NCBI GenBank assembly: GCA_017527625.1
Contig: JAFXPV010000084.1
Coordinates: 1 to 19,507 of the forward strand
Direction of reading: 5' to 3'
DNA length: 19,507 nt
DNA from: Bacteroidales bacterium
Lineage (GTDB): Bacteria > Bacteroidota > Bacteroidia > Bacteroidales > UBA932
Positions within the stretch are counted from its first letter, which is position 1. Each line of letters opens with the position of its first letter. The notes under the pieces are model-generated. The model was not told where the DNA came from. It saw only the letters and a program-made list of their open reading frames with translations, and ran no database searches. Of the stretch, positions 1 to 19,239 are shown piece after piece. The translations under genes were made by a program, and so were the position numbers.

Positions 1-1270
1 CCCGGCATTTGAACTGGCCGGCTCACCTGCCGCAGTCAAGGCTGCAGCCAGCGACAAGATACGCTTCGGCTTCATCGGCCTCGGGCAGCAGGCTATGTAT
101 CTGCTCAGCAGCTTCATCAAGATGGACGACGTGCAAGTCGTTGCCGGATGCGACGTATATGACATCAAGCGAAACCGCTTCGTCAAGAGGGTGACTGATT
201 ATTACAAAGGGCAGGGCGTCAAGAAGGTTACCGCTCCTGCAATGTACGAAAACTATGAAGACCTCCTAGCCCGCAAGGACATCGACGCCGTGGTCATAGC
301 CACTCCGGACCACTGGCACGCAGGCATAGCGATAGCCGCCTGCAAGGCCGGCAAGGACATATACCTCGAAAAACCGATGACCCTGACCGTCTATGAAGGC
401 CAGCAGCTGGTGAAGGCCGTGCGCAAATACAACCGCATACTCCAGGTCGGCAGCCAGCAGCGTTCGAGCGAGGAATTCATACACGCTGCCAACGTGGCCC
501 GCGAAGGAGACCTTGGCCGGATCCAAAAGATGGACGTCTATGTAGGCCGCTGGGACGGGCAGCCGTTCCCCGTGCCTCATCATTTTCCCGCCCAGACTCC
601 GCCTGCCGGCCTTAACTGGGACAAGTGGCTCGGTCCTATGACCGACAAGGCGACATATTTCCCGGACATCGATCCTCTGCTCAAGGAAGACGGCAGTGAC
701 ACTTGCTGGGGTGCCTGGCGCTGGTACAAGCCCACCGGAGGCGGATATATGACGGACTGGGGAGCACATATGTTCGACATTGCCCAGTGGGCTGTCGGCA
801 AAGACCTCTCCGGCCCCACCGAGATCATACCTCCCGGATACAGTTTCTACAAGAATCTGACTTACAAATATGATAACGGTATCGTGGTGGAAGAGACTAC
901 TTTCGACGATTCCGGCCAGGGTCTCAAGATTTACGGCGAGAAAGGCTGGATCGCAGTACACCGCGGCAAGCTCTATGCTTCCGATCCCAAGTTCGAAATG
1001 AAGGTGGGTGACAACGACGTGCCCTTCGAAGCCCGTGCCGGCCATCACCGCGTGTTCATCGAAAGCATCAAGAGCCGCATCGACCCGAATGTGCCCGTCG
1101 AAGTCGGCCACTCATCCTGCACGATGTGCAACATCGGCATCATCGCCGGCGAGCTTGGCCGTCCTCTCACCTGGAACCCTATAGTCCAGAAGTTTATGGA
1201 CGACCCCGAAGCCAACGCCTTGCTCCATTACCCCTACCGTCCCGGCTACGAACACCTGCTGGACGTCTAG
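1..1270 (+). CDS. Gfo/Idh/MocA-family oxidoreductase (5' end outside window)
   Basis: The reading frame is open from base 2 (first codon CCG), so the gene begins upstream and at least 422 residues are visible. The first ~18 residues are a low-complexity Ala/Ser/Pro linker of the kind that follows an export signal in Bacteroidetes members of this family; a Tat signal may precede the window (inference). The Rossmann dinucleotide-binding motif GFIGLGQQA is at visible residues 23-31, the family EKP motif at about 123-125 (in YLEKPMTL), and the second-domain motif DWGAHMFDIAQW, with Asp and His positioned for catalysis, at about 252-263. The family oxidises or reduces sugar, inositol or other polyol carbons with NAD(P); the substrate cannot be read from sequence. 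It converges on glpC, with a structured repeat filling the gap. Family assignment is very safe; function beyond family is open. Confidence 0.93.
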   Translation, partial: PAFELAGSPAAVKAAASDKIRFGFIGLGQQAMYLLSSFIKMDDVQVVAGCDVYDIKRNRFVKRVTDYYKGQGVKKVTAPAMYENYEDLLARKDIDAVVIATPDHWHAGIAIAACKAGKDIYLEKPMTLTVYEGQQLVKAVRKYNRILQVGSQQRSSEEFIHAANVAREGDLGRIQKMDVYVGRWDGQPFPVPHHFPAQTPPAGLNWDKWLGPMTDKATYFPDIDPLLKEDGSDTCWGAWRWYKPTGGGYMTDWGAHMFDIAQWAVGKDLSGPTEIIPPGYSFYKNLTYKYDNGIVVEETTFDDSGQGLKIYGEKGWIAVHRGKLYASDPKFEMKVGDNDVPFEARAGHHRVFIESIKSRIDPNVPVEVGHSSCTMCNIGIIAGELGRPLTWNPIVQKFMDDPEANALLHYPYRPGYEHLLDV

Positions 1271-1273
1271 CCC

Positions 1274-1410
1274 CGCCAAAGTGTGCGCGCAGGACCCCCT
1301 CCGGAGCCTACTCCAGGGCATATAACGAGCGCACACCACCCTTCCGAGGGGGTGGTGTGCGCCATCAATCGCGTCTGTGCGCTCTGCAGGGCACCTGCCC
1401 GGAGCACACT
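1274..1410 (-). repeat. RAYT-associated structured repeat, copy 1 (inverted, solo)
   Basis: This is the reverse complement of the repeats at 7148-7280 and 8314-8450, with only a few differences over ~135 bp. It contains the invariant hairpin with stem GCGCACACCACCC at 1329-1341 and its perfect complement at 1350-1362 (13 bp, 8-nt loop). Read on the minus strand it starts AGTGTGCTCC at 1410 and ends CACACTTTGGCG at 1274. It occupies nearly all of the 160-bp space between the convergent 3' ends of the oxidoreductase gene (stop 1270) and glpC (stop 1431). It probably acts as a bidirectional 3'-end structure for both transcripts as well as a mobile or mobilisable repeat (inference). Confidence 0.9.
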
Positions 1411-1430
1411 CGCGCAAGGGAACTCCGGAA

Positions 1431-2678
1431 TCAGCGGTCTTCGAGGGCCTGGGCCAGGACGGAGACGGGATTCATCACCGGAATGCCGGTGGACATCTCT
1501 ATCTGCCACTTGCAGGTCTCGCATTCGGTGACGACTGCGAAGGGCGCTGAATCGTCAGCCTGCGCCTTGGCTTCGCGGATCTCGGCGAAGAGGGTTTCGC
1601 CGATGGCCTGGGAGTACCCGTAGTTTTCTTTCTTGAAGCCGAAGGTGCCCGAAATGCCGCAGCAGTTGGGCTCAAGCACTGTCAATTCCACTCCGGGAAT
1701 CATACGGAGTATTTCGATGGTGAACTGCTGCCAGCCCAGCCTCTGCATATGGCAGGCGGTGTGGTAGGCCAGCTTCAGGCGGAAATCCTTGCGGAAGTTG
1801 AGCTTAATCTCGCCGGACTGCAGCTTGGGATAGAGCCAGCGGGTGAGCAGCATTATGCGGTCCTTGACATCTTCGTTGGGAAGGCCGAGCACTTCGGGAT
1901 ATTCTTCCCTCATCATATGCGTGCAGGACGACGACACCGTAAGGACGGGGCCTTCGGCCTTGCGGATGGAATCGAGGTTGATGCGTCCCTGTCGGGTGGC
2001 CTTCGCTGCGAAGCCGTTGCTCATCAGAGCAATGCCGCAACATTTCTCTTTCTCCAGCAACTTGACTCCGTAGCCGGCGGCGTTGACTACCTTGACGAAG
2101 TCTTTGCCGAGCTGGGAATAATTGTAATTGGCGTAGCAGCCGTGGTAGAAGCTGACCGTCTTTGCGAAGCCGGCCTGGGCGTCCTGGGCCTCCTTGCGGA
2201 ACCAAGTCTCGAATTTCTGGGATGAATATGCAGGGAAGGTGCGGTGCTTGTCGACGCCAAGAGTGCCGTGAAGCACGGCTTTGGCCACTCCGGTCTTGAG
2301 GATGCCGTTGGCTATCGGAGCTATGGGGGTCGCCGCCATACCGCCTACGAAATCCGTGGACGCCAGAGTCCAGTCACGCAGACCGTGAAGGCTGCGCACC
2401 TTCGATTGCGAGCCGTATTTGATGCGGGCGGTCTGGATCATATCGCCGATCTTGACTCCGGAAGGACAAGCCACCTCGCAGCGCTTGCAGTTGAGGCAGT
2501 ATTTGAGGGCATAGTCGTAATACTCAGGGTCTTTGATCCTGTATCTCTCGCCGTCGGGACCAGCCTTCTTAGGCCCCGGATATTGTTCGTTCACCGCCAG
2601 CATCGGGCATACCAGCGTGCAGAGGTTGCACTTCAGGCACTGTTCGAGATTGGCTGTGCTTATGCTTGTTTCCTGCAT
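1431..2678 (-). CDS. glpC: anaerobic glycerol-3-phosphate dehydrogenase, iron-sulfur subunit C
   Basis: A 415-residue protein with two N-terminal ferredoxin-type [4Fe-4S] motifs: C14, C17, C20, C24 (CLKCNLCTLVCP) and C61, C64, C67, C71 (CLNCKRCEVACP). Two cysteine-rich CCG motifs follow at 213-215 and 339-341, as in the heterodisulfide-reductase/GlpC/LutA class. GlpC passes electrons from the GlpAB flavoprotein to the quinone pool and anchors the complex at the inner membrane. It is the last gene of glpA-glpB-glpC, starting 5 bp after glpB stops. Length is close to the E. coli protein. No obvious transmembrane helix is present, so membrane contact would be peripheral. The CCG family includes several redox subunits, but adjacency to glpA and glpB makes GlpC the best call. 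Confidence 0.93.
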   Translation of the reverse strand: MQETSISTANLEQCLKCNLCTLVCPMLAVNEQYPGPKKAGPDGERYRIKDPEYYDYALKYCLNCKRCEVACPSGVKIGDMIQTARIKYGSQSKVRSLHGLRDWTLASTDFVGGMAATPIAPIANGILKTGVAKAVLHGTLGVDKHRTFPAYSSQKFETWFRKEAQDAQAGFAKTVSFYHGCYANYNYSQLGKDFVKVVNAAGYGVKLLEKEKCCGIALMSNGFAAKATRQGRINLDSIRKAEGPVLTVSSSCTHMMREEYPEVLGLPNEDVKDRIMLLTRWLYPKLQSGEIKLNFRKDFRLKLAYHTACHMQRLGWQQFTIEILRMIPGVELTVLEPNCCGISGTFGFKKENYGYSQAIGETLFAEIREAKAQADDSAPFAVVTECETCKWQIEMSTGIPVMNPVSVLAQALEDR

Positions 2679-2683
2679 ATTTC

Positions 2684-3307
2684 TTACTGTTTTTTCAATA
2701 TCTTGCCGGCAGCAGCCTTGCCGCTGGCCTCAATCTCACTTTCTGACATAGGTCCGCCGGCCATCACCTGCCCGGCAGCAAAGAGGTTGCAGATGCTCCT
2801 GCCTCCTTTGATGACGTGGCCTTCGGCATCGGTCTTCACTCCGAACTTCTCGTAGGGCTGGGGAGCGAAGAAATCGGGGTCGAACCACTTTTCGTGGTCT
2901 TCCTCGAACTCCACATCGGCATCGAACACCGGCTCGAACACCTTTTCCATATTGGACATAATGCCGCGGGAGAAGAATTTGCCGGTGGCGAGCAGATATG
3001 CCCCGGCCTCCAGCGGCTCGCTTCCGAGATTGCGGCTGAATACCATTTTTACCGATGTGCCGTCTTCGCTCAGACAGGCATTTATTATGCTGTCACCCCT
3101 GAACACCGTGACGCCTTCAGCCGCAAGGGCCGACAGCGCGGCGTAGGGAGAATGTTCCTGGGCCTTCGGGGATGCAGGCCCCACCGTGGCGTCGTGGAGC
3201 GACAGCCCCTCGGAGAACAGAGCAACCTTCCTGCCCGCTGCAGCCAGTTCAGAGGCCGCGGTGCAACCGGCCAGGCCTCCGCCGATTATTATAACGTCAT
3301 ATTTCAT
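2684..3307 (-). CDS. glpB: short GlpB-like flavoprotein subunit of anaerobic glycerol-3-phosphate dehydrogenase
   Basis: A 207-residue protein with an N-terminal FAD-binding motif (VIIIGGGLAG, residues 5-14). Its C-terminal half matches GlpB: LLATGKFFSRGI at 105-116 and DPDFFAPQPYEKFGVKTD at 143-160, the latter close to the characteristic FFAPQPWQQFGVTTD of E. coli GlpB, then NLFAAGQVMAGG at 174-185. E. coli GlpB is about 419 residues; here roughly 200 central residues are absent, with the two halves joined in frame. The gene overlaps the glpA stop by 4 bp (ATGA) and is followed by glpC, so it is translationally coupled and not an obvious decaying fragment. GlpB bridges GlpA and GlpC in electron transfer. 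The family call is strong; whether the short form is fully active is unknown. Confidence 0.85.
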   Translation of the reverse strand: MKYDVIIIGGGLAGCTAASELAAAGRKVALFSEGLSLHDATVGPASPKAQEHSPYAALSALAAEGVTVFRGDSIINACLSEDGTSVKMVFSRNLGSEPLEAGAYLLATGKFFSRGIMSNMEKVFEPVFDADVEFEEDHEKWFDPDFFAPQPYEKFGVKTDAEGHVIKGGRSICNLFAAGQVMAGGPMSESEIEASGKAAAGKILKKQ

Positions 3308-4857
3308 TTCCTGTGTACCTTATGCATATATTCAGCCTCCCTGAGGGTGTCTCCCCACAACACGGGAGTCATACCTTTCCAACGCTCCTGCAGATATCCG
3401 TCCACCAGCTCCTGCGCCTTTTCGGGAGTTCCGAGCACTTCGGCCAGCACCTTCGCTACCCTGCTGATGCAGAATGAACCCTGGCAAGTGCCCATACCCA
3501 CCCTGGTGTGACGTCTGAGGTCGGAGATCGTCCTCACGCCCAGATTCTTGACTGCGTATTCTATCTCGGCGCGCGTCACCTGCTCGCATTCGCATATAAT
3601 CTCGCCGGCGCCTTTGCCGCTGAAATCCATCATATCGGCCTCGCTGCCGTGACGGCCCACGGCCGCACGTTTATGCACCGGATCCTTGCCGCCTTTGCGC
3701 TTGTGGGAGCCGGGCAGCTGCTTGACAGCTGTTGTGCAAGGAATCTTGAGCCCGAGTTTCTCGCACACCAGGTCGGTGGCCATTTCTGCCATCAGACGGC
3801 AGGTGGTGAGCTTGCCGCCTGTTATGGTGATAAGTCCCTTGACGCCGTCGCGCTTCTCGTGGTCGAGCAGGACGATGCCGCGGCTGACATTTCTGCCGTT
3901 GGCCGAGCTGTCGGCAACAACGAGGGGACGGACTCCTGCGTAGGCTCTGATAATCCTGGTTGTGGACAGTGCAGGCACCAGATGGATACCCTCCTGGAGC
4001 AGCACGGACACTTCGTCGCCGGTGGCCTTCATATCCTCGCAGTCTTCGAAAGGAACCTTATCGGAAGTCGTGCCGAGCACGCTGACTACGTCGCCGGGGA
4101 CGAGGATGTCGGCATTGCCGGGCTTGCGGCAGCGGTTGATCACCATCCTGGTGAGGCGGTGTCCGAAGATGAGAAGGGAACCTTTGCTGGGCATCATACC
4201 GATCTGGGCGCCTCCCATTTCAGCGAGATGTGCGCTCCATATACCGGCTGCGATGACTACCTGCTTCGAGCGGATTTCACTGTCGCCGAGCATTACGCCT
4301 TTCACGCAACCGTCCTCCTTCACGAGGCCGGTGACCTCGCGGAACTTGATGACGTCGGCGCCGTGGCGCACTGCATCAAGGATGTTGGCGTCCACTAGGC
4401 GGAAAGGGTCGACGGACGCGTCAGGAACCTTCACCGCACCGATAAGGGCCGGATTTACCGCCGGTTCCAGCCTGAGAGCTTCTTCGGGGCTTATGGCTTC
4501 GGCCTCGATGCCGCAGTCCAGACAGGCCTGGATGAATTTAGCCTGATACTCGAGGCTGTCTTCCGGCAGGGTGATGAACAGTCCGCCCGTCGGGTCGATG
4601 CACGACGAGGCTATCCTGCGCAGAATCTTGTTTTCCGAGATACACTCCCTTGCTCCTTCGGGGTCCGTGACGGCATATCTGGCGCCGCTGTGAAGCAGGC
4701 CGTGGTTACGGCCCGAAGCGCCGTCGCACAAATCGCCTCTCTCGACAAGCAGGGTCTTGAGCCCGCGCAATGCGCAGTCTCTTGCGGTGGCGGCTCCGGT
4801 TATTCCGCCGCCGATGATGATGACATCGTATTCTTTGTTGGTGTTTTCTATAATCAT
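3304..4857 (-). CDS. glpA: anaerobic glycerol-3-phosphate dehydrogenase, catalytic subunit A
   Basis: A 517-residue FAD-dependent dehydrogenase oxidising sn-glycerol 3-phosphate to dihydroxyacetone phosphate. The FAD motif IIGGGITGAA is at 14-23, followed by the substrate/flavin region SGRNHGLLHSGARYA at 48-62 and TGGKLTTCR at 346-354, all typical of GlpA/GlpD. A C-terminal BFD-like [2Fe-2S] domain is present with C422, C424, C458 and C463, which separates GlpA from the aerobic GlpD. It is the first gene of glpABC, so the operon delivers a complete anaerobic enzyme. The start (ATG at 4857) lies 48 bp from the divergent GH3 start. No glycerol kinase or transporter is present in the window, so substrate may come from phospholipid turnover or genes elsewhere (inference). 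Confidence 0.96.
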   Translation of the reverse strand: MIIENTNKEYDVIIIGGGITGAATARDCALRGLKTLLVERGDLCDGASGRNHGLLHSGARYAVTDPEGARECISENKILRRIASSCIDPTGGLFITLPEDSLEYQAKFIQACLDCGIEAEAISPEEALRLEPAVNPALIGAVKVPDASVDPFRLVDANILDAVRHGADVIKFREVTGLVKEDGCVKGVMLGDSEIRSKQVVIAAGIWSAHLAEMGGAQIGMMPSKGSLLIFGHRLTRMVINRCRKPGNADILVPGDVVSVLGTTSDKVPFEDCEDMKATGDEVSVLLQEGIHLVPALSTTRIIRAYAGVRPLVVADSSANGRNVSRGIVLLDHEKRDGVKGLITITGGKLTTCRLMAEMATDLVCEKLGLKIPCTTAVKQLPGSHKRKGGKDPVHKRAAVGRHGSEADMMDFSGKGAGEIICECEQVTRAEIEYAVKNLGVRTISDLRRHTRVGMGTCQGSFCISRVAKVLAEVLGTPEKAQELVDGYLQERWKGMTPVLWGDTLREAEYMHKVHRK

Positions 4858-4905
4858 AAATTCAAATTTACTAATTTTATTGTCAAAATCATATTTGTTT
4901 TCAAG
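4858..4905. promoter_or_regulatory. divergent glpA / GH3 promoter region
   Basis: The only space between the two divergent genes is 48 very AT-rich bases. On the minus strand a perfect Bacteroidetes -7 box TAAATTTG lies at 4870-4863, only 5 bases before the glpA ATG; no TTTG sits at the expected -33 distance. On the plus strand CATATTTG (4893-4900 area) is a near match that would also give an almost leaderless GH3 transcript. Promoters somewhere here are required by gene layout; the exact boxes are uncertain. Confidence 0.35.
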
Positions 4906-7149
4906 ATGAAAAACTCAATTTGCATACTTGCTGCGGCATTATTGCTGCTTTCAGCCGGCTGCTCTCCCAAATGGGAGGAGACGGCGACCCCTGACGGATA
5001 TAATCTCGTAACCCAGAAGGACGGTCCTTCGCTCGGTTACTCACCTGCGTCGGGTGTACAACTCATTACATCCGGAGGCTATGCCTTCAAGGATCTCAAC
5101 CGCAACGGCAAACTGGATATCTATGAGGACTGGCGCAAGAGCCCTGAGCGCAGGGCTGCGGACCTTGCCAGCCAGCTGTCCATCGAAGAGATTGCCGGAC
5201 TTATGCTTTACAGCGGTCACCAGTCAGTACCTTCCGAGAATATCACGGATGCCCAGAAAAAGTTCCTCTCGGAGGACAACCTGAGAGCCGTGCTTGTGAC
5301 GAGCGTCGCTTCTCCTGAAGTAGCAGCCAAATGGAACAATAACGTGCAGGCATTTGTCGAAGGTCTCGGACACGGCGTTCCTTCCAACAACTCTTCCGAC
5401 CCCCGCAACGAGACTTCCGCCACTGCCGAGTTCAACGCCGGCTCGGGCGGACGCATCTCACAGTGGCCGACGACTCTCGGAATGGCCGCCACCTTCGACC
5501 CGGATCTCGTGGAGGAGTTCGGCCGGATTGCTTCCAAGGAGTACAGGGCGCTCGGCATCGCGACGGCTCTGTCTCCCCAGATCGACCTGGCGACCGAACC
5601 CCGCTGGTCCCGTTTCAACGGCACTTTCGGCGAGGATCCCGACCTTGACGTGGATATGGCCCGCGCCTATGTCGACGGCTTCCAGACCACCGAGGGCTCC
5701 AAGGACGGATGGGGCGCTGAGAGCGTCAACGCAATGATCAAGCACTGGCCGAGCGGCGGTCCGGAAGAGGGCGGCCGTGACGCACACTACAACTACGGAA
5801 AGTATGCCGTCTACCCCGGCAACAACATCTCCGACCATATCAGGGCCTTCGTCGAAGGTGCCTTCCAGCTCAAGGGCGGCACCGGCAAGGCCACGGCAGT
5901 GATGCCCTACTACACGATTTCATACGGCATCGACCCTTCAGGCAAGAATGTCGGCAACAGCTACAACCACTATATCATTACCGACCTGCTGCGTGACAAG
6001 TACGGCTTCGACGGCGTTGTCTGCACCGACTGGGGCATCACCAACAACAACTCCACAATCTATTCGTTCGACGGCAAATGCTGGGGAGTCGAGACTCTCA
6101 GCATAGCCGAGCGCCATTATGAAGTGCTGAAGGCGGGCGTCGACCAGTTCGGCGGCAACAACGACAAGGGACCGGTGCTGGAAGCTTATCAGATGTGGGT
6201 GAAGGACTCCGGCGAAAAGAGCGCACGCGCCCGTTTCGAGCAGAGCGCTGTCCGTCTTCTGCTGAACAGTTTCCGCACAGGTCTGTTCGAGAATCCCTAT
6301 CTCGACCCCGCGAAGACTGCGCAGGTTGTCGGCAATCCGGAGTTTATGGCCAAAGGCTACGAAGCGCAGCTCAAATCAGTCGTGATGCTCAAGAATCACG
6401 GCTCGGTTCTGCCCAAGACCCAGAAGCTCAAAGTATATGTTCCCAAGCGCCTGTATCCGGCCAGAGGCGGAATGTTCGGCTTCGGCGGCACCAGCCAGGC
6501 CCGCTGGGATTACCCCGTCAGCAAGGAGCTGGTCGAGAAGTACTACGAGTGGACCGACGATCCGCGCAAGGCTGACTTCGCACTCGTGTTCATCCAGCAG
6601 CCTTCGGGCGGCAGCGGCTACAGCCGTGAGGATGCTGAGAAGGGTGGCAACGGATATGTACCCATCAGTCTGCAGTACAGGCCTTACACTGCTACCGCAG
6701 CCCGCGAAGTTTCGATAGCCGGCGGCGACCCCAAGGAGAGCTTTACCAACAGAAGCTACCGCGGCAAGACCGTCACCTGCGACAATATGACCGACCTGGA
6801 AATAGTCATCAACACAAAACGCCAGATGGGCAACCGTCCCGTGATTGTCTGTATGTCAGTATCAAGGCCGGTCGTTATGAGCGAAGTTGAACCCTATGCT
6901 GACGCCATACTGGTAACTATGGGCGTGCAGAACCAGGCGGTCCTCGACCTGGTGAGCGGCAAGGCCGAGCCTTCAGGCCTGCTTCCTATGCAGATGCCTG
7001 CCAATATGGAAACGGTCGAGAAGCAGTTCGAGGACGTTCCCCGCGATATGGAATGCTTCGTCGACGCTGACGGCAACACCTACGACTTCGCCTTCGGTCT
7101 CAACTGGAAAGGAGTCATCAAAGACGCCCGCGTAGAGAAATATAAATAG
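4906..7149 (+). CDS. glycoside hydrolase family 3 lipoprotein (beta-glycosidase type)
   Basis: A 747-residue exported enzyme. The start at 4906 is chosen because it gives a lipoprotein signal peptide with lipobox LSAGC (Cys19); the longer frame reaching 4690 would run into glpA on the other strand. After the signal there is an EF-hand-like DLNRNGKLDIYED segment (63-75). The GH3 (beta/alpha)8 domain follows with QWPTTLGMAATFDPDLVEEFGR (186-207), the KH pair at 279-280 in IKHWPSGGPEEGGRDAH, and the nucleophile Asp375 in GFDGVVCTDWG. The C-terminal alpha/beta sandwich starts near SVVMLKNHGSVLP (491-503). The family hydrolyses beta-linked gluco- or xylo-oligosaccharides; specificity is not readable. 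Its stop codon overlaps the start of repeat copy 2. The MFS gene beyond the RAYT may once have been its direct neighbour (inference). Confidence 0.93.
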   Translation: MKNSICILAAALLLLSAGCSPKWEETATPDGYNLVTQKDGPSLGYSPASGVQLITSGGYAFKDLNRNGKLDIYEDWRKSPERRAADLASQLSIEEIAGLMLYSGHQSVPSENITDAQKKFLSEDNLRAVLVTSVASPEVAAKWNNNVQAFVEGLGHGVPSNNSSDPRNETSATAEFNAGSGGRISQWPTTLGMAATFDPDLVEEFGRIASKEYRALGIATALSPQIDLATEPRWSRFNGTFGEDPDLDVDMARAYVDGFQTTEGSKDGWGAESVNAMIKHWPSGGPEEGGRDAHYNYGKYAVYPGNNISDHIRAFVEGAFQLKGGTGKATAVMPYYTISYGIDPSGKNVGNSYNHYIITDLLRDKYGFDGVVCTDWGITNNNSTIYSFDGKCWGVETLSIAERHYEVLKAGVDQFGGNNDKGPVLEAYQMWVKDSGEKSARARFEQSAVRLLLNSFRTGLFENPYLDPAKTAQVVGNPEFMAKGYEAQLKSVVMLKNHGSVLPKTQKLKVYVPKRLYPARGGMFGFGGTSQARWDYPVSKELVEKYYEWTDDPRKADFALVFIQQPSGGSGYSREDAEKGGNGYVPISLQYRPYTATAAREVSIAGGDPKESFTNRSYRGKTVTCDNMTDLEIVINTKRQMGNRPVIVCMSVSRPVVMSEVEPYADAILVTMGVQNQAVLDLVSGKAEPSGLLPMQMPANMETVEKQFEDVPRDMECFVDADGNTYDFAFGLNWKGVIKDARVEKYK

Positions 7150-7280
7150 TGTGCGCCGGGCGGACGCCCTGCAGAGCGCACAGACGCGATTGATGGCGCA
7201 CACCACCCCCTCGGAAGGGTGGTGTGCGCTCGTTATATGCCCTGGAGTAGGCTCCGGAGGGGGTCCTGCGCGCACACTTT
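7148..7280 (+). repeat. RAYT-associated structured repeat, copy 2
   Basis: About 133 bp, bounded by AGTGTGCGC and GCGCACACT (9-bp perfect terminal inverted repeats). It begins inside the GH3 stop codon. Hairpin I pairs TGTGCGC (7150-7156) with GCGCACA (7176-7182) around an inner GGGC/GCCC mini-stem. Hairpin II is the invariant 13-bp stem 7196-7208 / 7217-7229 with loop CCTCGGAA. A third element, GGAG-TAGG-CTCC (7244-7255), carries the tetranucleotide GTAG. Unlike copies 1 and 3, homology stops at CACACTTT and lacks the following GGCGG. It is in direct orientation with copy 3, the two bracketing the RAYT gene. Confidence 0.92.
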
Positions 7281-7295
7281 AAGTATAAAAAAACA

Positions 7296-7327
7296 GTTGC
7301 AAGAAAGAAAGATTATTCCCAACTTTG
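7296..7327 (+). promoter_or_regulatory. possible promoter of the RAYT gene
   Basis: GTTG at 7296-7299 and CAACTTTG at 7320-7327 are separated by 20 bases, an imperfect match to the Bacteroidetes TTTG / TAnnTTTG pattern (TA replaced by CA). It lies between repeat copy 2 and the RAYT start at 7391 and would give a leader of about 55 nt. Confidence 0.28.
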
Positions 7328-7390
7328 GAACAGGACTACTCGTCGAGTCATCGTGTTGGTGGCGTACGGTCGAGGGGGTAGAATTATACT

Positions 7391-8314
7391 ATGATGACGC
7401 AATATTCTTACGGCGCCGACCGTTCCGGCTATTTTCACTTGTGCTCTGATGGCGCCCTGTCGCCGCACTTCCTTATCTGCGAAGATGATTTCAGATACGC
7501 GTTCAACCTGGTTGGCGTATGCGCGGCAAATTGCGCGGCGACAATCCTTTCTTTCTCTCTAGAAGATACGCATCTGCACATATTGGCATATGGGAGCAAG
7601 GATAGCTGCATCCTATTCAAGTCAATGTATGAAGGCAGTTGGGCTCATCATATCGCGGGAACACGTGGCTCGAGGAAGGGGGCAGTGATAGACTTGGACA
7701 TAATCCCGGTAGATAGTCAGGAATACCTGATGAGTGTAGGCACATACACAATTGTCCAGCCGACGAAGGATGGCAAGCAAGTGATGCCATATGACTATCG
7801 ATGGGGAACAGGTTCTATGTACTTTCGAAGGTCAGGTTATATCTCTTTATGGACTATTGACGATAAGGGAGAAAAACGTGATACGATCAGGGCTGGAGAA
7901 ATTCCAAATAAACGACTCTGCAGTATTCTTGGATCCCGGCGGCCTGTTCCCAAAGATTGGGTTATTTGCAACGATATCCTCCTCCCAGACAACTACGTAG
8001 ATGTCGCACACTATGAAAGCATCTATTCGACAGCTAACTGTTTCAGGGTCTTTCTGGCCAGCAACCGGAACAGAGATCAGGAGATTCTGAAACGTATAGC
8101 AACTGTCCGGGGCGTGGCTATCGAAGATTCAGAAGCAAGAAAACTCTGCCACGAGATTTCGGAACAGCATTTCGGAACCAAAAACGTACACATTCTTAAT
8201 TCCAGCCAAAGAATTCAACTCGCTCAGGAACTGCGCAGAAAATGGCATATCAATGCGAGACAGATCGCCTCACTCGTGCAACTCAAGTATACCGAAGTCT
8301 GCAAATATATCTGA
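7391..8314 (+). CDS. REP-associated tyrosine transposase (RAYT), Y1 HUH superfamily, with C-terminal extension
   Basis: A 307-residue protein. Residues ~14-145 form the IS200-like Y1 transposase domain: FHLCSDGALSPHFLICEDDFRYAF (15-38), then the metal-binding HUH pair H61 and H63 in LEDTHLHILAYG, the SMYEGSWAHHIAGTRGS segment (78-94), and the likely nucleophile Tyr119 in SVGTYTIVQPTKDG, followed by MPYDYRWGTGSMYF, which corresponds to the family YxWSSYxxY region. Such enzymes cut single-stranded DNA at palindromic repeats via a covalent 5'-phosphotyrosine. Residues ~150-307 are an extension absent from short RAYTs; its end, LRRKWHINARQIASLVQLKYTEVCKYI, resembles a helix-turn-helix. The gene is flanked by the repeats it probably acts on, and its stop abuts copy 3. 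The frame is intact and the active-site residues are present. It is less likely to be an ordinary IS200/IS605 TnpA, which is shorter and lacks this tail. Confidence 0.85.
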   Translation: MMTQYSYGADRSGYFHLCSDGALSPHFLICEDDFRYAFNLVGVCAANCAATILSFSLEDTHLHILAYGSKDSCILFKSMYEGSWAHHIAGTRGSRKGAVIDLDIIPVDSQEYLMSVGTYTIVQPTKDGKQVMPYDYRWGTGSMYFRRSGYISLWTIDDKGEKRDTIRAGEIPNKRLCSILGSRRPVPKDWVICNDILLPDNYVDVAHYESIYSTANCFRVFLASNRNRDQEILKRIATVRGVAIEDSEARKLCHEISEQHFGTKNVHILNSSQRIQLAQELRRKWHINARQIASLVQLKYTEVCKYI

Positions 8315-8450
8315 TGTGCGCCGGGCAGGTGCCCTGTGGAGCTCACAGACGCGATTGATGGCGCACACCACCCCCTCGGAAGGGTGGTGTGCGCTCGTTA
8401 TATGCCCTGGAGTAGGCTCCGGAGGGGGGCCTGCGCGCACACTTTGGCGG
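8314..8450 (+). repeat. RAYT-associated structured repeat, copy 3
   Basis: Starts at the last base of the RAYT stop codon and ends ...GCGCACACTTTGGCGG. It carries the invariant 13-bp hairpin (8361-8373 / 8382-8394, loop CCTCGGAA). Hairpin I has one mismatch (GCTCACA in place of GCGCACA), and its mini-hairpin reads GGGC-AGGT-GCCC where copy 2 has GGGC-GGAC-GCCC. The 3' border with TTTGGCGG is shared with solo copy 1 but not with copy 2. Its terminal TTTG (8443-8446) fits as the -33 box of the downstream MFS gene. Confidence 0.92.
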
Positions 8451-8474
8451 AAAGCAAAATATAGCTTAAATTTG
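8443..8474 (+). promoter_or_regulatory. promoter of the MFS transporter gene
   Basis: TTTG at 8443-8446, a 20-base spacer, and a perfect -7 box TAAATTTG at 8467-8474 match the Bacteroidetes housekeeping promoter. The start site would be near 8481, giving a leader of about 34 nt to the ATG at 8515. The -33 box belongs to the repeat, so the repeat and the promoter are physically fused. Confidence 0.6.
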
Positions 8475-8514
8475 GTGTCTGATTTTCCGCACAGAACTAA
8501 TCAATCTCACAATA

Positions 8515-9909
8515 ATGGCAGAAAAAGTACAAAAACTACTTAACGATTACCCCGCAGCGAGATGGGCGGCGCTGATACTCATCGCGCTGATGATGTTCTT
8601 CGCCTATATGTTCGTAGACGTGATGTCTCCGCTCAAGTCTCTTATCGAAAGCTCACACGGCTGGGACAGCGGGGTGTTCGGCACCTACGCATCCGCTGAG
8701 TACATCCTCAACGTATTCGGCTTCCTTATCATCGCAGGTATCATCCTCGACAAGATGGGCACCCGCTTCACCGGCGTTCTCTCCGCTTCCATAATGGTAG
8801 TCGGAGCGCTCATCAAGTTCATCGGCATCAGCGACTGGTTCCAGACGACCGGCTTCTGCAACTGGCTCAACAGCTGGTGGGTGACTATGCCCGGCAGCGC
8901 CAAGATGGCAGCGCTCGGATTTATGATTTTCGGCTGCGGCTGCGAAATGGCCGGAACTACCGTTTCCAAGGCTATCGCTAAATGGTTCAAAGGCAAGGAA
9001 ATGGCCCTGGCTATGGGACTCGAGATGGCTATCGCACGACTCGGAGTGTTCGCAGTGATGTGGATCTCCCCCATCATCGCCGACCGCTTCGGCAATGCCA
9101 ACGGCATAGTGAATGCCGGCGACAGCGCTGTCGCATCTCTCGGCTTCTGCGCAGCCCTGCTCCTCATCGGACTCATCAACTTCATCATATTCACCTTTAT
9201 GGACCGCAAGCTGGACAATCAGCTCGTGGCAGCCGGCCTGGCGACCGAAGAGAAATCTCCTGAAGATGAATTCCACGTGTCAGACCTCGGACAGATCTTC
9301 TCAAGCAAGATGTTCTGGCTGGTGGCTCTGCTCTGCGTGCTCTATTACTCAGCTATCTTCCCGTTCCAGAGATATGCCCCGAACTTCCTCGAAGTGACTC
9401 TCGGCATCGACGCGACTGCGGCTTCCCGCCTGTTCAGCTGCTTCCCGATCCTGGCTATGTGCCTCACTCCCCTGCTGGGCATCTTCCTGGACACCAAGGG
9501 CAAGGGAGCCTCAATGCTTATGATCGGCGCCATCATTATGATTGTCTGCCACCTGAGTTTCGCGTTCCTGCTTCCGGCATTCCCTTACAAATGGCTCGCT
9601 CTCACACTGATTGTCATCCTCGGAGTCAGCTTCTCGCTCGTGCCCGCAGCCCTGTGGCCCAGCGTACCGAAGATTATCGACGAGAAAGTGCTCGGCAGCG
9701 CCTACTGCCTCATCTTCTGGGTGCAGAACATCGGTCTTTGCCTCGTGCCGCTGCTCATCGGCAAGCTCGTTGAGTCTACCGGAGGCTATCTGGTGCCTAT
9801 GATCGTGTTCTCAAGCTTCGGAGTTCTGGCCTTCATCTTCAGTATGCTGCTGAAAGTCGAAGACCGCAAGAAGGGCTACGGACTTGAAAAGCCGAACATC
9901 CAGAAATAG
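8515..9909 (+). CDS. major facilitator superfamily transporter
   Basis: A 464-residue integral membrane protein with about 12 hydrophobic segments (first at ~17-37, then ~60-78, 86-106, 130-150, with a second half from ~267 to ~446) and a central hydrophilic loop at ~230-260. An MFS motif-A-like sequence AGIILDKMGTRFTG (74-87) follows the second helix, and a related FLDTKGKGAS occurs in the second half (324-333), as expected from the duplicated fold. It appears to be a secondary carrier of small organic solutes; the substrate is not readable. Proximity to the GH3 lipoprotein suggests sugar or glycoside-derived uptake (inference). It has its own promoter, partly in repeat copy 3, and ends in a clear terminator. 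Confidence 0.88.
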   Translation: MAEKVQKLLNDYPAARWAALILIALMMFFAYMFVDVMSPLKSLIESSHGWDSGVFGTYASAEYILNVFGFLIIAGIILDKMGTRFTGVLSASIMVVGALIKFIGISDWFQTTGFCNWLNSWWVTMPGSAKMAALGFMIFGCGCEMAGTTVSKAIAKWFKGKEMALAMGLEMAIARLGVFAVMWISPIIADRFGNANGIVNAGDSAVASLGFCAALLLIGLINFIIFTFMDRKLDNQLVAAGLATEEKSPEDEFHVSDLGQIFSSKMFWLVALLCVLYYSAIFPFQRYAPNFLEVTLGIDATAASRLFSCFPILAMCLTPLLGIFLDTKGKGASMLMIGAIIMIVCHLSFAFLLPAFPYKWLALTLIVILGVSFSLVPAALWPSVPKIIDEKVLGSAYCLIFWVQNIGLCLVPLLIGKLVESTGGYLVPMIVFSSFGVLAFIFSMLLKVEDRKKGYGLEKPNIQK

Positions 9910-18762: not shown

Positions 18763-18835
18763 GCCGATATAGCTCAGTCGGTAGAGCAGCTGTTTTGTAA
18801 ACAGCAGGTCGGGGGTTCGAATCCGTCTATCGGCT
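18763..18835 (+). tRNA. tRNA-Thr (anticodon TGT)
   Basis: A 73-nt cloverleaf: acceptor GCCGATA pairs with TATCGGC, discriminator T. The anticodon stem GCTGT/ACAGC encloses loop TTTGTAA, giving TGT. The T arm contains GGTTCGAATCC. CCA is not encoded. First tRNA of the cluster. Confidence 0.96.
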
Positions 18836-18852
18836 CTGATGTTTGAAATACT

Positions 18853-18935
18853 GGGGAGATACCAGAGTGGCCAAATGGGGCAGACTGTAAATCTGCTGGC
18901 GCACGCCTACGGTGGTTCGAATCCATCTCTCCCCA
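18853..18935 (+). tRNA. tRNA-Tyr (anticodon GTA)
   Basis: An 83-nt tRNA with a long variable arm, typical of bacterial tRNA-Tyr. Acceptor GGGGAGA pairs with TCTCCCC, discriminator A. The anticodon stem GCAGA/TCTGC holds loop CTGTAAA (GTA). CCA is not encoded. It lies 17 nt after tRNA-Thr(TGT). Confidence 0.96.
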
Positions 18936-18949
18936 CATATATAAATCAG

Positions 18950-18997
18950 GCGGAAATGTTGTGACATAATTGCTATTGCAGCATTACCGCTTTTTTT
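18950..18997 (+). terminator. terminator/attenuator inside the tRNA cluster
   Basis: GCGG-A-AATGTTG pairs with CAGCATT-A-CCGC (one A/A mismatch, one G-U pair) and is followed directly by seven T. This is a good intrinsic terminator shape between tRNA-Tyr and tRNA-Gly. No convincing second promoter is seen in the 29 bases that follow, so it may act partially, lowering read-through to tuf. Confidence 0.6.
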
Positions 18998-19026
18998 ATA
19001 AAAGTGAATTGAAAGCTTGGTTTTTT

Positions 19027-19102
19027 GCGGAAGTAGCTCAGTCGGTAGAGCATCAGCCTTCCAAGCTGAGGGTCGCGGGTTCGAACCTCGTCTTCCGCTC
19101 CA
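19027..19102 (+). tRNA. tRNA-Gly (anticodon TCC)
   Basis: Acceptor GCGGAAG pairs with CTTCCGC, discriminator T, and CCA is encoded (19100-19102). The anticodon loop CTTCCAA gives TCC. The D arm AGCTCAGTCGGTAGAGC and T arm GGTTCGAACC are standard. Confidence 0.96.
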
Positions 19103-19113
19103 GTAATAGCTCC

Positions 19114-19155
19114 CTGTCGCCATCAGGCGATAGCGGGGTTCGGGGCAGCGCCCCG
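19114..19155 (+). other. two GC-rich hairpins in the tRNA-Gly/tRNA-Thr spacer
   Basis: Hairpin a: CTGTCGCC-ATCA-GGCGATAG (19114-19133), 8 bp with one G-U pair. Hairpin b: CGGGGC-AGC-GCCCCG (19141-19155), 6 bp, all G-C. No T-run follows, so these are not intrinsic terminators. Possible roles are tRNA precursor processing or a small palindromic insertion (inference). Confidence 0.6.
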
Positions 19156-19164
19156 GTATAAAAT

Positions 19165-19239
19165 GCTGGTGTAGCTCAGGGGTAGAGCGCTTCCTTGGTA
19201 AGGAAGAGGTCGTGAGTTCAATTCTCACCACCAGCTCCA
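19165..19239 (+). tRNA. tRNA-Thr (anticodon GGT)
   Basis: Acceptor GCTGGTG pairs with CACCAGC, discriminator T, CCA encoded (19237-19239). The anticodon stem CTTCC/GGAAG encloses loop TTGGTAA, giving GGT. It is the second threonine isoacceptor of the cluster and lies 41 bases before tuf. Confidence 0.96.

Follow-up and report, generated by a model that had tools for sequence, protein, structure and literature searches.

Pairs of RAYT genes and repetitive extragenic palindromic (REP) sequences are a prime bacterial example of a domesticated transposase that has a repeat of its own. In published accounts a classical RAYT gene lies between two REPs in inverted orientation (PMC2817692), and single-stranded REP DNA is cut at CT by the enzymes of E. 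coli and Stenotrophomonas, in a reaction that needs the tyrosine and is GTAG-dependent (PMC8266576). REPINs, which are RAYT-linked, are described as symmetrical elements of two hairpin units with two alternative folds (PMC3116915). In the TnpA-Y1 survey of Quentin et al. (2018), which began from PF01797 matches at E < 0.01, the motif Y---NP is given as common to class 2 and Y-x3-Q is given for subclass 1.2 (PMC6006769). Here we analyse a stretch of 19,507 nt (the window), contig JAFXPV010000084.1 of the Bacteroidales assembly GCA_017527625.1, which carries a RAYT-like gene bracketed by long palindromic repeats. The gene is probably a divergent relative of RAYT/TnpA-REP, with the ~135-150-bp palindromes as its cognate, REPIN-like elements.

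The RAYT-like gene (7391-8314, + strand, 307 aa) lies between two direct copies of the repeat, one upstream at 7148-7280 (+) and a second at 8315-8450 (+), which starts right after the stop codon and is itself upstream of an MFS-like transporter gene (8515-9909, +; named by eye). A third, inverted copy sits at 1273-1410 (-), flanked on either side by the 3' end of a convergent open reading frame (ORF). This arrangement had been read from the window in the original prediction and is borne out, the three copies being 92-97% alike: the direct copies share 92% identity over 143 nt (7138-7280 vs 8303-8445), and the inverted copy is 96% complementary to 8315-8450 and 97% to 7148-7280. The count of three covers the window, and the same copies are found at corresponding places in the nearest genome, G001. 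Every copy is palindromic in itself and its hairpins are predicted to be strong. The first contains four 8-nt arms that are identical or complementary, with 0 mismatches (7149-7156, 7196-7203, 7222-7229 and 7270-7277), and its central hairpin (7196-7229) has equivalents at 8361-8394 and 1329-1362 in the second and third copies. The arms of this window type hardly vary among copies.

Homologues of the gene were found in 24 of the 60 relatives searched (21 of 26 in the genus, 3 of 10 in the rest of the family and 0 of 24 in the rest of the order), with up to seven matches per genome, read as six genes as some genes give two rows. Rows 1-41 of the 87 match rows, with row 34 omitted, gave 40 loci for analysis, or 41 with the window. 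The original prediction would have been weakened by a lack of matches near related genes, but matches were found: at 23 of the 41 loci direct repeats 60 bp or longer bracket the gene. Among loci with enough flank, 23/39 family genes were bracketed vs 10/189 control ORFs of the same loci; for repeats of at least 120 bp the numbers were 18 and 7. Some of the control-ORF matches adjoin a family gene and appear to be these same repeats. The bracketing excess, together with the three matching copies in G001, places the association of repeat and gene beyond chance. Because the relatives hold many such pairs with differing repeat sequences, the system looks like a divergent branch within a known kind.

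Palindromes of this kind could also act in transcription termination or in some other regulatory role and merely accompany the gene. One copy follows the RAYT-like stop codon directly, another lies between convergent ORFs, and strong predicted hairpins would suit such a role. However, all 23 bracketed loci also have a similar copy on the upstream side of the gene, as the bracketing test requires. A scan of 1000-9000 gave six terminator-like sites, as many as expected from shuffled sequence, and all six lie outside the repeats; in a search of the whole window against Rfam at the gathering score the repeats had no match. We consider this explanation improbable.

Most of the elements are palindromes of 130-160 bp, which agrees with the earlier claim of a repeat several times longer than a classical REP, and their sequence varies with the type of gene; the proposal of a distinct repeat family is supported. 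Removing six near-duplicates from the 23 bracketing elements leaves 17 types, of which ten carry 8-nt arms arranged w, w', w, w', each of the four with no more than one mismatch (shuffles: mean 0.02, maximum 1). Arm-start spacings are 44-52, 20-28 and 44-52 in nine of these ten, the tenth (L091) being shorter, and the hairpin-unit loops are ~38 nt in 9/10. Because of the order of the arms, one element can, judged from its sequence, form either a pair of hairpins or a single long one. Two REP-like hairpins in one symmetrical unit with two folds, tied to a RAYT-like gene, resemble a REPIN; the ~38-nt loops and the few copies per genome where counted do not. Unlike at classical RAYT loci, the bracketing copies are direct and each is a double hairpin. 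Protein and element similarity are correlated over the 23 pairs (rho 0.37, reached by 0/2000 permutations), with clearly similar elements (E < 1e-6 over at least 100 bases) in 11/253 pairs.

That differing gene types are bracketed by differing element types also speaks against a third possibility, namely that the palindromes are like miniature inverted-repeat transposable elements, moved by an unrelated DDE transposase with the gene as a passenger. By eye, window-type copies in genome G004 do terminate in inverted repeats of ~16-20 bp, but counts of target-site duplications (k 3-6, 13 copies) were not above the permuted expectation, and we regard this as very unlikely.

At the protein level the gene is homologous to RAYTs. 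The HUH positions H61 and H63 (codons 7571-7573 and 7577-7579, +, read from the DNA) and the candidate Tyr119 (7745-7747, +), all named in the original prediction, are in place and unchanged in 34/34 aligned homologues, and their counterparts are unchanged in 11/11 of a wider protein set. Purifying selection is also seen. The window protein has the TnpA-REP fold, closer to TnpA-REP than to IS608, and is like E. coli TnpA-REP (4er8) in its HUH and Tyr positions and overall fold. It differs in length (307 aa, with an extra C-terminal region whose helices, at ~8201-8308, +, are possibly a helix-turn-helix) and in having Y---QP, with Gln123 at 7757-7759 (+), in place of Y---NP. The TnpA of IS608 has Y-x3-Q. 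Remote relatives do match PF01797 or NF047646, mostly below cut-off, and Y---N is retained in 6/6 remote relatives. Class-2 membership was rejected, and the protein is filed as a divergent relative rather than a class-2 RAYT because Y---NP and a direct profile match were both tested and neither was found. The arrangement is read as working like a REPtron with REPIN-like elements, and the proposed equivalence stands in part: a RAYT-type fold, the catalytic positions and bracketing palindromes are present, whereas Y---NP is missing and the bracketing copies are direct instead of inverted. A profile search of PDB sequences returned a single chain, AdeR (E 0.34), which was set aside.

Subclass 2.6 of TnpA-Y1 is among the closest described groups. 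It is listed with 179 aa with NH[LIV]H and YIH[QN]NP, mostly from Bacteroidetes, with atypical flanking structures that lack the consensus GT[AG]G and copies elsewhere in the genome (PMC6006769). The present system shares the atypical flanking structures, the copies elsewhere and the Bacteroidetes host, but the window protein has THLH and YTIVQP, is 307 aa long and lacks a PF01797 match; membership was rejected on signatures and length.

Window-type elements were counted with a model search of 26 genomes (E <= 1e-4, strands merged by hand), in which up to 121 candidates were scored per genome, so that the counts are lower bounds; an earlier per-genome count scored up to 11 candidates and likewise gives lower bounds. 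The model was built from copies of the window, G001, G002 and G004, which therefore match by construction. There were at least 20 places in G004, 9 in G002, 6 each in G008 and G005, 4 in G001, 3 in G020 and 1 in G015, and none at this threshold in the other 19 of the 26 genomes among the matches listed. The original prediction allowed for an abundant repeat; where it can be counted, in draft genomes, it does not appear to be one (at least 4 places in G001, at least 20 in G004, the richest relative). In G004, six of the 20 listed places are on the 26-kb contig of the gene (binomial 9e-8; 2e-6 when the copy next to the gene is left out). A second element type is present in G001, G002, G004, G015 and G023, and a third in G001, G005, G008 and G020. 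Compared with ORFs, 26/70 rows were flagged as inside one, most of them by short, mechanically found ORFs. Two window-type copies in G004 (L098:3174-3405 and L101:2733-2969) share ~230 bp past the element at 88% identity; either a repeated unit that is larger than the element or an older insertion common to both could account for this.

On contig C191 of G001 a gene lies between two elements, whereas the counterpart site in G008 has a single element, whose wider left flank is that of the first G001 copy and whose right flank is that of the second; ~60 bases immediately left of the G008 element differ from G001. The difference may have arisen through a recombinational loss or because a gene and an element were gained together. 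In eight close genomes, the window included, an element lies upstream of the transporter gene in seven (cut by a contig end in G002, of a related type in G020 and G005, and read by eye in G023) and is absent in G015, where the last 13 bases of the element are retained. Since the transporter-gene tree groups G015 with G004 and G002 (93/97; not a starred fork), loss of the element in G015 appears likelier than original absence. The transporter stays as right neighbour while the left neighbour varies: the RAYT-like gene (forward in the window and G001, reversed in G020 and G005), an oxidoreductase-like gene in G004 and in G015, which lacks the element (names by eye), and in G023 what reads by eye as the end of an aroE-like gene. 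In G004 the RAYT-like gene is ~8 kb off on the same contig as the transporter site. Element copies sit where gene order changes.

Much of this evidence bears on another explanation, that of an IS200/IS605-like insertion sequence in which element-gene-element moves as a unit and single elements are deletion remnants. The several genes per genome, the G001/G008 difference (which fits either direction) and the Y-x3-Q signature, as given for subclass 1.2 (PMC6006769), are consistent with it. We nevertheless think it unlikely, as near-window genes keep the same neighbourhood in G001, G004, G005 and G020, with differing gene order, homologues within a genome are at most 68% identical among those analysed (37 pairs, 14 genomes), G004 has its window-type places with one near-window gene, and the fold is nearer TnpA-REP. 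In contrast to IS200/IS605, no near-identical multi-copy units were seen among the homologues analysed from the drafts, which are incomplete, and the elements are far above the 20-25 nt given for IS200/IS605 end hairpins (PMC6006769). Bracketing palindromes, copies elsewhere and one gene neighbourhood across species are shared with RAYT/TnpA-REP.

Several observations weigh against a RAYT/TnpA-REP relative with cognate, REPIN-like elements. All 34 homologues have Y---Q and fail the class-2 signature test, no Pfam or NCBIfam model, PF01797 and NF047646 included, matches the window protein at E <= 10, and PF01797 matches none of the 34 homologues at E <= 1. Copy numbers are low (lower bounds of 3 to 20 places) in the four genomes that have a near-window gene (G001, G004, G005 and G020), and window-type copies occur in G002, G008 and G015, in which no near-window gene was found (genomes 85%, 80% and 74% complete). 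By the test used, 16/39 testable genes lack a bracketing direct repeat; seven of the 17 types fail the four-arm test; and the correlation between protein and element is modest, with some 66-67% identical proteins having elements without detectable similarity. Unlike in RAYT/TnpA-REP systems no GT[AG]G foot is common to types: it is found at 3/40 arm feet over the ten types vs 2.5 expected, two of the three being inner feet of the window copy (among window-type copies, GTGG is at the inner foot in 13/21 on one strand and 6/21 on the other). A loop motif common to types (CCTGGAG and the like) was not found, the best 6-mer occurring in 7/17 types and in up to nine in shuffled sets. At the G015 site the missing element may simply have been deleted.

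If the RAYT/TnpA-REP reading holds, an element on single-stranded DNA, for example at replication, would fold into two hairpins or one long hairpin, and the protein would bind its own arm sequence and cut at the element feet through Tyr119. The element would then be moved or copied, with the gene staying in one neighbourhood and being vertically inherited, and recombination of the direct copies could delete the gene, leaving a single element. Binding, cleavage and movement are what we infer for these elements. A more specific proposal, which we put forward tentatively, is a separate HUH-Tyr branch in which a two-part protein (a catalytic core with Gln for the RAYT Asn, and a possibly DNA-binding C-terminal region) might recognise the whole ~146-nt four-arm double hairpin by type-specific arms and spread it mainly near its own gene, so driving repeated reshuffling of gene order there.

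The gene-element system was not found in the open-access literature searched, which leaves most subscription journals outside, and its lineage is missed by standard profiles. As several diverged gene-element pairs exist within one genus, how protein and palindrome stay matched during change is testable on a natural series of pairs, in which the arms differ and shape and spacing are constant; it may also be a case of recognition that does not depend on a common GT[AG]G guide.

Another repeat family, made up of ~65-75-nt hairpins (AACTTATCTCC ... GAGGATAAGTTC), occurs next to the long palindromes in several of the genus's genomes (e.g. L116:3217-3423, L117:3250-3537 and L099:2727-2919). Short tandem repeats of ~51 bp are related to part of the sequence next to the long palindromes (L118:3527-3692, L119:2202-2525 and L127:325-504). 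L103 and L112, which match over 2.2 kb at 98% identity between G004 and G002, carry an element copy, and the match is either a recent transfer or a binning error. Of the named relatives, the best is a contig from a Bacteroidales metagenome-assembled genome of yak rumen, whose alignment to the window is identical to that of G001, and on this sequence match the host seems to be a rumen Bacteroidales. A cluster of four tRNAs lies at 18763-19236 of the window (Rfam).
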